Shown here in pieces: positions 46,090 through 54,070 of a stretch of DNA of 64,000 bases (its first letter is position 1; every line of letters begins with the position of its first letter). The notes below the pieces were generated by a model. The model was not told where the DNA came from and did not search any database. It worked only from the letters and a program-made list of their open reading frames with translations. The DNA is from Planctomycetota bacterium (GTDB lineage: Bacteria > Planctomycetota > PLA2): contig JAJFFH010000061.1 of assembly GCA_021776735.1 (NCBI GenBank), positions 62,001 to 126,000 on the forward strand, written 5' to 3'. Position numbers and translations under genes: made by a program.

Positions 46090-48273
46090 CTACGCCGACT
46101 TGGCGCAGCGGAATCCAAACGTCGAAGTGTGAACCTTCGAGTAGACCTGTTCAACCGCCGCGAGGCTCTTCTTCCATGCGGGCACGGCCTGATACGACGC
46201 GCCCTTCGCGACCCTTGACTCCGGTTGCGGGCCGGCCACGGTGCGTGGCACGAACGGGCTCTCCGTCCATTCGGCGACGTTGCCGAGCGTATGACGAAGA
46301 CCGTGCGGACCGGGTGCACCCGAACCCACCGACTGCACGTTGGCCAAGTAGACGTCGCGGATCCACTCCGGCGGCGGATCATCCGAAGGCGGTACCGGGG
46401 GCGGTCCACGAACGACAGCGTCCGTCCTGATCCGGGTGGCGTCATTGCCCCACGGAAATGAACGCCCATCGGTGCCACGGGCGGCTCGCTCCCACTCCGC
46501 GACCGTCGGCAACCGCTTGCCGACCCACGCGGAGTAGTCGTTGGCGTCGTACCAGTCAACGAACGCAACCGGCAAGTCGTCCCAAGCCCGCTGGTAGCCG
46601 CCCACCCACAACCCGGGAGGCTTCCGGCCCGTTGCATCGACAAAGCGCTTGTACTCCGCGTTCGAAACCTCAACAGGGTCGATCAGAAACGTCCCCAGCT
46701 CAAGCTCGCGCTCGTAGTAGAAGTGTTCGTCCGCGCGATCGCCGCTACCGAACACGAACTTCCCGGCAGGCACGCGGACCATGCCGTCGGCAGCATCTAA
46801 AACGAGTCGCATGCGCAAGTCGAGGGCCTGTCCGGCGGGGAGATGCACGAAACGCTCCGCCGCAATGGATCCGTCACGGGAGAGCTCGACTCGGTACCAA
46901 CCGGGACGGACGGCGATGTTTTTGATCGGTGTGGTGCCGAGGTCTTCGGCGTGTTCCACATACCCCAGCGGGTCGATCGTCAGGAGTCGGACTGCATCGC
47001 CGTCCGTCCCGTCGTCTGCGCTGACACTCAAGGTGGGCCAGTCACGCCGGCGCCACCAGTTCAAGACACCGTAGGTCGCGCCGCCACCGAGGGCGAGGGC
47101 GCCCGCAGCGACGCTGCCGATCAGCACCTTGCGGCGGTGCGGGCGCAGCTTGCGGCGCGCGCGGCCCAGAAACGACGGCGGCTGTGCCGCGATGGGCTTG
47201 CCGTCGGCGTGCCGACGCAGATCCTCGGCTAACGCGGCCGCCGTCCGATATCGGTCTTCCGGCCGCTTCTCCATGGCCTTGAAGCAGATCGTCTCGAGAT
47301 CGCGCGGGATGCCCGCGTCGAGCTTGCGCATCGAGTCGGGATCGCGAAATGAAATGCTGTAGAGCACGTCCTGCTGCGTCTCGCCCTCGAAGGGGCGCCG
47401 CAGCGTCAGCATCTCGTAAAGCACGACGCCGAGCGAGAAGACGTCCGCACGCCGGTCGATCTTGACCCGCTTCGCGAGTGCTTGCTCGGGACTCATGTAG
47501 TACGGCGTGCCGGCGATGTCGCCGGAAATCGTCAGGCTCTTGAGCGCCTCGAACTTGGCCAGGCCGAAGTCGACGAGATGCGGGCGACCCGCCCCGTCGT
47601 CTTGTCGGTCCTTGTCTACCAGGATGTTTTGCGGCTTGACGTCGCGGTGGATTACGCCGTGCTCGTGCGCGTAGTGCAACGCGCCGGCGACATCGGCGGC
47701 AATCCGCGCCCAGCGCCGGCGCAGGGCCTCGGGTCCGCCGTTGCCCGACTCGCCGTGCTTGATGGCATCGCGCGCGTCCGCCACGAGGTCCGCGACGGAC
47801 CGGCCATGGACGAAGTCCATGACGAAGAACGGAATGCCGTCGACCTTGCCCTTGTCGAGCACCGACACGATGCCCGCGTGGTCGAGCTTCGACGTCGCCT
47901 CGGCTTCACGCTCGAAGCGGTCGCGGTGCAGCTTCGACAGGGCGAGGCTCGGGTGTAGCTGCTTGACGGCGACCACGGTGCCGGACGGATGCTGGGCGCG
48001 GTAGACCACGCCCATGCCGCCCCGGCCCACGACCTCCATGAGTTCGTACTCTCCGAGTCGCCGACCCTCCGGTAGATCCTCGCCCGCAGCGATGTCGCCC
48101 GGGGTCTGGAGCATGCGCTGCTCTGCCTCGTGGGCTTGTATCATTTCCTCCAGCTCGAGGCGCATGGCGTCGTCGTCGCACTCGAGTCGGAGAAAATCGG
48201 AGCGCTGTTCCACGCGAAGTATGACGGCTTCCGCGAACAGGCGCTTCATCCGCTCCCAGCGCTCCGTGGTCAT
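46090..48273 (-). CDS. Ser/Thr protein kinase fused to a formylglycine-enzyme-like domain
   Basis: 727 residues. The kinase domain (~75-350) has GRGGMGVVYRA, VAVKQLHP, the catalytic loop IHRDVKPQNILV, and DFGLAKFEALKS, then GTPYYMSPEQAL, all intact. A membrane helix (LIGSVAAGALALGGGATYGV) follows, then a beta-rich linker and a C-terminal SUMF1/FGE-sulfatase-type domain (DGMVRVPAGKFVFGSG, then LPTVAEWERAARGTDGRSFP). In this family the domain often has no enzyme role. ATG 48273 overlaps the sigma factor stop (ATGA). The linker contains two 13-mers (46906, 46995) in inverted orientation, 102 bp end to end, encoding DGTDGDAVRL and IKNIAVRPGWY. Confidence 0.92.
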   Translation of the reverse strand: MTTERWERMKRLFAEAVILRVEQRSDFLRLECDDDAMRLELEEMIQAHEAEQRMLQTPGDIAAGEDLPEGRRLGEYELMEVVGRGGMGVVYRAQHPSGTVVAVKQLHPSLALSKLHRDRFEREAEATSKLDHAGIVSVLDKGKVDGIPFFVMDFVHGRSVADLVADARDAIKHGESGNGGPEALRRRWARIAADVAGALHYAHEHGVIHRDVKPQNILVDKDRQDDGAGRPHLVDFGLAKFEALKSLTISGDIAGTPYYMSPEQALAKRVKIDRRADVFSLGVVLYEMLTLRRPFEGETQQDVLYSISFRDPDSMRKLDAGIPRDLETICFKAMEKRPEDRYRTAAALAEDLRRHADGKPIAAQPPSFLGRARRKLRPHRRKVLIGSVAAGALALGGGATYGVLNWWRRRDWPTLSVSADDGTDGDAVRLLTIDPLGYVEHAEDLGTTPIKNIAVRPGWYRVELSRDGSIAAERFVHLPAGQALDLRMRLVLDAADGMVRVPAGKFVFGSGDRADEHFYYERELELGTFLIDPVEVSNAEYKRFVDATGRKPPGLWVGGYQRAWDDLPVAFVDWYDANDYSAWVGKRLPTVAEWERAARGTDGRSFPWGNDATRIRTDAVVRGPPPVPPSDDPPPEWIRDVYLANVQSVGSGAPGPHGLRHTLGNVAEWTESPFVPRTVAGPQPESRVAKGASYQAVPAWKKSLAAVEQVYSKVHTSTFGFRCAKSA
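46906..46918 (+). repeat. 13-mer word, exact copy
   Basis: Left member of an inverted pair in the kinase linker; flanks extend it to CGGGACGGACGGCGATG. Confidence 0.85.
46995..47007 (-). repeat. 13-mer word, exact copy (inverted partner)
   Basis: CATCGCCGTCCGTCCCG completes a 17-bp perfect inverted repeat with 46902-46918. Confidence 0.85.
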
Positions 48274-48863
48274 TTCAATCGTGCCTCTAGCCAGGCGCGC
48301 GCAAACTGCCACTCGCGCTCGACCGTTCGTTCGGACACACCGAGCGCCTCGGCGACCCGCGCGTTGCTCAGGCCACCGAAGAACTTCAGCTCCACGACGC
48401 GTGCCGACTGCGGATCGCGATCGGCCAGATCCTCCAGAAGCTCGTGCAGCTCCAGGTGTTCGAGCTCGTGTCCCATGACACAGACCGACATCTGGCTGAG
48501 CGGGATCCGTGCGCCGACAGCCCGGCGCTTGTCGCGCCGCTTGGCCTTGTCATGGTCCGCAAGCGCCCAGCGGATGGCATTCGCGGCCACGGCCCGAAAG
48601 TGGCTGGCTCCCTTGTAGCCCGCGGCGTCGCGATCGACGAGACGCAGATAGGCCTCGTTCACGAGCGCGGCGGGCTCCAGCGTGTGGCTGGGCCCCCGCG
48701 CCCGCAGCAGGCGGGCGGCGAGACGCTCGAACTCTGCGTACAGGGTCTCGTACAGGCAACAGCGCGCGTGCTCGTCTCCCTCACGAACACGGCGCAACAA
48801 GAGCGTCATTTCGCTCTTCGAAACCCGGTCTCCCGGATCCTGGGGGGCTTGCCTGGTTCCCAT
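48270..48863 (-). CDS. ECF-type RNA polymerase sigma factor
   Basis: About 197 residues. It matches the short planctomycete ECF group: region 2 (YAEFERLAARLLRARGPSHT, then LVNEAYLRLVDRDAAGYKGA) and region 4 with a helix-turn-helix (VVELKFFGGLSNARVAEALG, then VSERTVEREWQFARAWL). These factors are typically paired with a kinase, as here by ATGA overlap, which suggests kinase-linked regulation. The start is uncertain: ATG 48863 is used, while ATG 48809 would remove 18 residues that do not look like region 2. The 314 bp beyond (48864-49177) show no other feature beyond a pyrimidine-rich tract at about 49035-49065. Confidence 0.85.
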   Translation of the reverse strand: MGTRQAPQDPGDRVSKSEMTLLLRRVREGDEHARCCLYETLYAEFERLAARLLRARGPSHTLEPAALVNEAYLRLVDRDAAGYKGASHFRAVAANAIRWALADHDKAKRRDKRRAVGARIPLSQMSVCVMGHELEHLELHELLEDLADRDPQSARVVELKFFGGLSNARVAEALGVSERTVEREWQFARAWLEARLK

Positions 48864-49177: not shown

Positions 49178-49387
49178 ATGCCGGCCTACCTGCTCGACAA
49201 AACCGACGCAAACGCGGTTCGGCTGCCCTGCGAGGGCACAGTCAGCCTGGGACGCGACTCGCGAAGCACGGTCCAGATCGATGATCCGCAGGCGTCGCGC
49301 AACCACGCCGTCCTCCAGGAAGTCGGTCGCGACAGGGTCTCGCTCTTGCCCGAACGGAACGCGATGACCTTCTTCAAGGATTCGTAG
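49178..49387 (+). pseudogene. Truncated FHA-domain gene
   Basis: The first ~47 codons give the start of a forkhead-associated domain (SLGRDSRSTVQIDDPQASRN, then HAVLQEVG), with the phosphothreonine-site residues GR, S and RNH. After about 49320 the frame runs antisense to the kinase remnant, so the domain (about 90 residues when intact) is lost. The break coincides with the end of the PEGA repeat on the other strand, as expected from a deletion that fused two convergent genes. Confidence 0.6.
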
Positions 49388-50724
49388 CCCGCAAGGGAGA
49401 GCGTCACGGCGTGCCGGCCCTCATCGAGATCGGTCACGTTCAACGGGGTGAGCCCGCGCACGCGCCCGTCGATCGTGATCTCCGCGCCATCGGGTGTCGA
49501 TTGGATCCGCAGCACGGTTTCGATCGTCACGCGGACGAGAACCGCGTTCAGATCCACCCGCCGATCCGTAAGTGACACTCGCGGACGCACGAACGGCACG
49601 TATCCCTCCTTCTCGATGCGGACCTCGTGATCGCCGGACAGGCCCGTGAGCGTCAAGGGCGTCGTGCCGCGCACGACACCGTCAATGCGAACCGTCGCTC
49701 CGCTGGGCGTGCTCCCGGCAAGCAACTCGCCCGCGGGCGCAGGCGGCTCCGAATCGCGACCGAAAAAAAACAGCGCCGCGATCACCACGAAGAGACCAAC
49801 GGCGGCGAGGCCGATCCACTGGCCACGACGGGCATGACGATCGGCCGGGACGGGCGGCCCGGAAACATGGGCGCGGCGCCGTGGCCGCGGCCGCACGGCG
49901 ACCTGTTGACCCTGCTCGGCACGCTTCGCGATCGCGGAGACCCGTCGAATCGTCTGCTCCCCCCCATCACGATGCCCGAGCGACGCGTATGCCAACTCGA
50001 GCGCCTCGAGCAGCGCGTTCGCGTCCTGAAAGCGGTCCTCCGGCTTCGGCGGCAGGCAGCGCTCGATGATCGCGACCGTCGGCTTCGACACGTCGGGCCG
50101 CAACTCGGCAATCGGCACGTAGCGGCCTTCGATCGTCTTCAGCAGGGTATCGATCTGGTCGGGCCCACGATAGGGAGCGGTGTTGCACAAGAGGGCGTAC
50201 AGCGTGGCGCCCATGCCGAACACGTCCGCGGATTTCTTCGCCGAGCGCGCGTCCCGCCCCTGCTCGGGGGACACATAGCCCGGCGTGCCCATCCCGATCC
50301 TGCTGCTCGTCAACTCCTCCTCGCTGTCTTCCACGCGGGCAAGACCGAGGTCGGCGAGCTTTGAACGCCCGAAGAGCAACTGTCCGTCCGGCGAAGCCGG
50401 GATCATGATGTTGTGCGGCTCACGAGATGCGGCGACGGCAGATTGGCGGCGATCCGCGCCTCCTGGATGAACCGCTCGACGATCGGCTCGTCTTTCACCT
50501 GCAGCCCGCTCGGGAGAACCTTGACCGCCACCTCGCGTTGAAGCCGCGGATTGACCCCGTAGTACACGACGCCCATTCCGCCGCGGCCCAACTCGCGCAG
50601 CAGGGCAATCTTGCCGACCGACGGGCGCCTCTCGCCTTCGAACTCGATCTTGTCGCAACCGACCAGGGCGCGATCCGCGCTGAGATCGACGGCCGACTTG
50701 GACCACGACTCCGCGATCGTTCAT
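49320..50724 (-). pseudogene. Disrupted Ser/Thr kinase gene with two PEGA repeats
   Basis: In one frame there is an intact N-lobe (LLRELGRGGMGVVYYGVN, then VAVKVLPS and IVERFIQEARIAANLPSPHL). At about 50420 the frame shifts, and sequence jumps from PHLV to PHNIMIPASPDG, so roughly 70 residues including the HRD catalytic loop are missing. The C-lobe (ADLGLARV, GTPGYVSPEQGRD, SADVFGMGATLYALL) continues, then a membrane helix (IGLAAVGLFVVIAALFFF) and two PEGA repeats (IRIDGVVRGTTPLTLTG-like). The N-terminus also lacks a start codon in frame. The gene is decayed; no active kinase can be made. Confidence 0.75.
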
Positions 50725-50827
50725 CAGGCCGGTCGGCTCCCATGGCAGCCCAAAGGTAGAAGTTTGGGGCGGAAACGTCTACTCGCTATGCCCTCAGCCC
50801 CACCAGCAGTCCCTGGGCGACCGCCCA

Positions 50828-50916: not shown

Positions 50917-52611
<1,695 letters not shown>

Positions 52612-53158: not shown

Positions 53159-54070
53159 ATGAAACTTTCGCGATCCCTCCTCCTGATCACCGCGGTGATC
53201 ACATCTCTGTGCGCCAGTTCGGCCCTGGCTGATGAAATCCACCTCAAGAACGGCAAGGTCATTTCCGGCCTCGTCGTCGACGAGGGTGCGCGGTACACGG
53301 TCGTGGACCGGGACCGCAAGTTCGCCATCAAGAAGTCGCTGGTGAAAAAGGTCGCCGAGTCGAACTGTTTCATGAGCAAGTACCAGGCGCGGCTGGACAA
53401 GCTGCCGGTCGATGACGCCGAGGCGATTTTCGAGTTCGGCCGCTGGCTCGACCAGAACGACTGGTCCTCGCGGGCCAAGCTGGCCTACCGCGAGGTGCTC
53501 GATCTGGACCCGGATCACCGCGGCGCGCGCCGGGCGCTCAGCTATTCCATGTACGAAGGCGAATGGGTCTCGCCGGACGAGCTGAACCGCAAGAAGGGCC
53601 TCGTCGAGTTCGCGGGTGGCTGGTACACCAAGCACGATCTCGCCGAACTCAAGAAAGAGATCGAGAGCAACAAGAAGCTCCGCATCGCCTACGCCGAACG
53701 GCGCCGGATCAACGACAAGGTGAACCGGATCGTGCAGAAGTTCGCGACCTTCAACAAGAAGAAGCGCGCGAAGGCCTACAACGAGCTCTACCAGTTCGCG
53801 GAGCAGGTCAACTCGCCGGAGCTCCGCAAGTTCGCGGACGACACCAAGGCGCACTTCGACCGGATGCACAAGATTCTGTGCGCCAAGATGATGGCCCGCA
53901 CGGAAATCCAGGCGACGCACACCCAGCTCAAAAAGCCGATCGACGTCTTCCAGACCGCTCTCGGCGCCGCCATCGCGCTGAACGCCAGCCAGAACCCGGT
54001 CCGCATTCAGCTACCGGAACTGAGCGTGGCCAAGGTCCAAACAACCGTTGATATTCCTGCCGGGTGTTAA
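53159..54070 (+). CDS. Exported protein of unknown function with TPR-like helices
   Basis: 303 residues with a cleavable signal peptide ending SLCASSALA. A small N-terminal beta unit (DEIHLKNGKVISGLVVDEGA) is typical of planctomycete exported proteins, followed by a TPR-like pair (AKLAYREVLDLDPDHRGARR) and a charged coiled coil. An RBS-like GGGCGAG is weak. A strong terminator follows at 54146. Confidence 0.65.
   Translation: MKLSRSLLLITAVITSLCASSALADEIHLKNGKVISGLVVDEGARYTVVDRDRKFAIKKSLVKKVAESNCFMSKYQARLDKLPVDDAEAIFEFGRWLDQNDWSSRAKLAYREVLDLDPDHRGARRALSYSMYEGEWVSPDELNRKKGLVEFAGGWYTKHDLAELKKEIESNKKLRIAYAERRRINDKVNRIVQKFATFNKKKRAKAYNELYQFAEQVNSPELRKFADDTKAHFDRMHKILCAKMMARTEIQATHTQLKKPIDVFQTALGAAIALNASQNPVRIQLPELSVAKVQTTVDIPAGC

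Follow-up and report, generated by a model that had tools for sequence, protein, structure and literature searches.

Sigma factors of the ECF43 group are the closest described counterparts of part of the locus reported here. In passages of PMC8103513 and PMC8999054 their DAED motif is described as replaced, and a threonine in that place is phosphorylated by a neighbouring kinase. For one member, EcfK, residues T51 and T106 are discussed in parts of PMC13147305, where the T51A variant was still functional in multicopy complementation. Gene decay in large environmental genomes is treated in passages of PMC13288992, which report 125-527 pseudogenes per high-quality MAG from lake sediment, most of them in the largest MAGs, e.g., those of Planctomycetes.

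The locus combines a kinase-linked ECF sigma factor with two broken signalling genes. The host is probably a planctomycete, as the two best protein matches in named genomes fall in Planctomycetota. The locus lies in a 5.97-Mb genome assembled as 71 contigs, within the window (C58:62001-126000), i.e. the whole stretch of 64,000 nucleotides that was analysed; positions without a contig name refer to this window. The gene order along the stretch is kinase-FGE, ECF, truncated FHA, broken kinase-PEGA and groEL (50917-52611), and the kinase-PEGA remnants lie downstream of groEL on the minus strand. Two of these neighbours, the convergent kinase-PEGA and FHA genes, are probably recent pseudogenes that arose through small deletions. 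The repeats found comprise the GGM-tail repeat of groEL, an 18-base family that falls partly inside it, and two chance-like inverted pairs. No promoter-like sites were found, and there is a single terminator-like site (49790-49776, minus strand), fewer than in shuffles.

The kinase-PEGA gene

A Hanks-type kinase-PEGA gene is split over two different minus-strand frames. The N-lobe (50424-50720) matches positions 3-61 of PF00069 (E 5.3e-6, which for this match alone is below the curated cut-off), and the C-lobe, which is followed by two PEGA domains (49322-50421), matches positions 128-253. The initial annotation had placed a break at about 50420 and concluded that the catalytic loop was gone, and this is borne out: at the internal junction (50413-50425, minus strand) the frame changes and some 71-73 residues, including the HRD loop, are missing. 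When four intact homologues were aligned to the edges of the N-lobe and C-lobe, the gap measured 71, 72, 73 and 73 residues and ended in HRDxKP; in the neighbouring kinase-FGE gene it is 79 residues. Of the features expected of a functional Hanks-type Ser/Thr kinase, the region 50743-49322 retains the glycine loop (GRGGMG) and the lysine of the VAxK motif (VAVK). The HRD catalytic loop is absent, and there is no single open frame with a start. A PDB search with the C-lobe returned general kinases such as PknB.

The missing start of the N-lobe is a third lesion (50721-50743, minus strand), additional to the two breaks recognised initially. Stops interrupt the N-lobe frame at 50726 and 50723, and the first ATG, GTG or TTG in it is a TTG at 50591, directly ahead of the glycine loop and not credible as a start. 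The ATGs at 50743 and 50724 belong to two other frames. Between 49330 and 50420 the C-lobe frame contains no stops, whereas the remaining minus frames contain 11 and 3. Decay is suggested to be recent, since the C-lobe frame is still stop-free.

The FHA gene and the tail-to-tail junction

The plus-strand FHA ORF (49178-49387) encodes 70 amino acids. It is FHA-like to about 49339 and then runs antisense through the end of the PEGA sequence to a stop. The FHA domain is incomplete, with 33-35 of the 67 positions of PF00498 (1-33 in the window search, 1-35 in the genome search). Among the 30 FHA matches in the same genome, this stump is the only one that ends before position 59, the other 29 all reaching at least that far. 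On the opposite strand the first PEGA domain matches positions 3-69 of 71, and the second is cut, matching 2-60. At about 49320-49345 codon usage passes from the plus-strand FHA frame to that of PEGA on the minus strand. The cut FHA domain, the cut second PEGA domain and this switch together define a tail-to-tail junction at 49321-49345, which agrees with the initial view that both genes break near 49320.

In mechanistic terms, one internal deletion would have taken the catalytic region of the kinase, and a second, across the convergent 3' ends, would have cut off the two tails and brought the genes together end to end; these deletions, with a small lesion at the kinase start, make the simplest history. 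Because these motifs were lost, the kinase would be unable to phosphorylate, and the FHA stump would be unable to fold as a phosphothreonine reader.

Search for the intact locus in relatives

Comparison with an intact locus in a relative, as the initial annotation had proposed, yielded no such locus. In a DNA search of 59 genomes, including the host's own, only short stretches were found besides the locus itself, the longest being 239 bases. Around the groEL orthologue of four family relatives, none of the kinase, FHA, ECF and kinase-FGE genes was detected; in two of these relatives the contig continues for only some 3.3 and 2.0 kb on the downstream side of groEL. When 15 window proteins were compared by tblastn with the groEL regions of these relatives, groEL alone was recovered, plus groES or the gene at 53159 in one or two cases. 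The ancestral arrangement was therefore not seen, and fusion by deletion, as originally proposed, is the simplest reading, which we infer.

Protein searches reached further. The 54-residue FHA stump has matches in 16 of 149 genomes, its own included; no FHA orthologue can be named because the best E value outside its own genome is only 1.2e-6. The nearest homologues of the kinase are all located away from the groEL neighbourhood. Four planctomycete Hanks-type kinases (L062 on JACQVV010000082.1, G003:C37, L063 and G034:C215) are like the broken kinase in their domain and in a similar short N-terminal stretch, and those of L062 and L063 are 48-50% identical to its C-lobe part. Unlike the broken kinase, all four are open through the catalytic loop, and the one at G003:C37 has no PEGA domain in its frame of 340 amino acids. 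The G003:C37 gene, the closest kinase in the family, was considered as a candidate for the same locus and rejected; it is intact but sited elsewhere, next to what we take to be biotin-synthesis-like genes.

The failure to find the block next to groEL in any of the four relatives might indicate that the stretch was recently arranged, in which case a rearrangement (an inversion or the end of an insertion), and not a deletion, could have joined two truncated genes that were previously non-adjacent. This is unlikely, however, given that both genes share a single cut point, that the ORF list shows no insertion at the junction, and that no long repeat was found there.

Codon usage, control segments and other broken kinases

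Along the locus, the codon-usage track switches at about 50420 as well as at 49320-49345, in agreement with the domain and frame breaks. As a control, the codon-model scan was applied to 15 stretches of 20 kb from the same genome, containing 236 coding segments. Six of these were flagged, all as ending 123-177 bases before their stop, and none as lacking a start. In the window 3 of 51 segments were flagged, namely the C-lobe, the N-lobe and the segment 28232-29620. The flag on the C-lobe, an end 144 bases before its stop, is as mild as those on the six controls; the other two segments were flagged as startless. Since no control was startless, the scan backs the missing start of the N-lobe most; the case for the other breaks is made by domains and frames. 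The scan is insensitive, in that a frame shift in another broken gene of the genome (C22:120997-121841) went unflagged.

The segment 28232-29620 (minus strand) is coding-like, without a Pfam match, and its first 186 bases contain no start codon before 29434. A further frame break, or a start set at the wrong place, possibly explains it.

The genome contains 79 matches to PF00069, which merge to 75 loci, and five of these approximately 75 loci look broken, the present one included. Six kinase loci were read individually, and the others were judged from the match table with partial matches in long frames left aside. The kinase-FGE gene at C22:120997-121841 is interrupted by an in-frame TAG and also changes frame; the kinase at C20:9877-10318 lacks its first 71 positions and switches frames; that at C48:53550-53945 ends after HRDIKP; and that at C1:3184-3393 ends at position 71, followed by in-frame sequence without a Pfam match. 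A further match, at C10:10010, runs off the end of its contig. Judged by match table, two relatives with 60 and 50 PF00069 matches show no internal stop and no split over frames, in a count that leaves out partial matches in frames of at least 269 amino acids. Among ABC matches in the host genome an internal stop was found in 0 of 63, with four weak partial matches left out, and pieces of one gene share its frame. Fisher tests, which used rounded denominators and were conceived after the data had been seen, gave p 0.066 (5/75 vs 0/60) and p 0.011 (vs 0/108). The surplus of broken kinases in this genome is slight, and the presence of several among some 75 loci fits the turnover of an expanded family.

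These counts bear on the possibility of a local fault in the assembly or consensus (a strain mixture or misjoin in a metagenome-derived genome), with the genes of the organism itself intact. Three lesions inside 1.5 kb, in a genome of 71 contigs in which another broken kinase stops right after the conserved HRDIKP, would be in keeping with such a fault. It is nevertheless rather improbable in view of the absence of startless segments among the 236 controls and of internal stops among the ABC matches. Moreover, the kinase at C48:53550-53945 shows no kinase sequence past HRDIKP in the frames read, so its break does not reflect an exchange among kinase copies. Continued use of the remnants, with the short FHA peptide or the kinase piece without catalytic loop acting as a regulator, is very improbable; the C-lobe keeps its coding bias, and from an ATG at 50724 its frame runs without a stop to 49186 (512 amino acids), but across the N-lobe DNA this ORF is in the wrong frame, so that its product would lack the N-lobe, and the FHA piece is half a domain.

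There is good support for describing the region as a decaying signalling locus, because both genes are broken where the initial annotation placed the breaks and the catalytic loop is gone. Overall, the locus is a case of ordinary gene decay with one interesting sigma factor alongside.

The neighbouring ECF sigma factor and kinase-FGE gene

The adjacent kinase-FGE/ECF pair had been taken to be intact. With respect to frames and domains this holds. The kinase-FGE gene (46090-48312, minus strand) is open, with HRD and DFG motifs and complete domains, and lies directly downstream of the ECF gene (48270-48839, minus strand), which is likewise open and matches positions 2-183 of the 185 of PF07638, as well as TIGR02999 above its cut-off. 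Such an ECF with a downstream kinase is a repeated module in this genome: all eight ECFs with a PF07638 score over 140 bits are followed on the same strand by a kinase match (loci L145-L152), at a distance between domain matches of at most 0.3 kb in seven cases and 1.7 kb in one.

The pair departs from intactness at one residue. The window ECF was aligned with 71 other ECFs of at least 110 bits from 17 genomes, the host's own included. At the position equivalent to T51 of EcfK, where it has alanine, 66 of the others have threonine and four have serine, and one is cut by its contig; all 70 readable sequences thus carry a Thr/Ser acceptor. Two residues earlier the window ECF has glutamate, the others having glutamine in 59 cases and glutamate in 5. 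At a position in the linker it has proline, where 31 of the 71 have threonine and 14 proline; that this threonine corresponds to T106 of EcfK is a guess. The sigma2.2 DAED motif, as given in passages of PMC8999054, is absent, and EPAA occupies the aligned place. The absent motif and the adjacent kinase gene are ECF43-like, the missing acceptor is not; the family assignment of the window ECF is that given by PF07638 and TIGR02999.

As the T51A variant of EcfK worked in multicopy, the alanine in the window ECF is no proof of loss of function. Because the usual phospho-acceptor is missing, the ECF/kinase-FGE branch would be either rewired or also losing function. An altered ECF may lie next to broken genes by chance. 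A tentative and rather doubtful alternative is that one arm of a phosphothreonine circuit, made up of the FHA reader and a second kinase, disappeared while the ECF next to it escaped phospho-control, in which case the ECF might act without its kinase.

Comparison with described systems

The pseudogenes themselves are ordinary, and the locus marks where a signalling branch was lost amid some 75 kinase loci. Gene fragments are common in large planctomycete genomes, as in the MAGs of PMC13288992; kinase pseudogenes such as the present one are not described in the passages of that source considered here. The window ECF provides a natural test case, in that it poses the question whether a kinase-linked ECF without the acceptor residue still works, and whether it is always on. 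The answer would show how circuits of this kind are taken apart or rewired. With EcfP/PknT and EcfK/PknS, the ECF43 pairs described in parts of PMC8103513, PMC8999054 and PMC13147305, the window ECF shares the lack of DAED and the adjacent kinase gene; where those sigma factors have an acceptor threonine, it has alanine instead.
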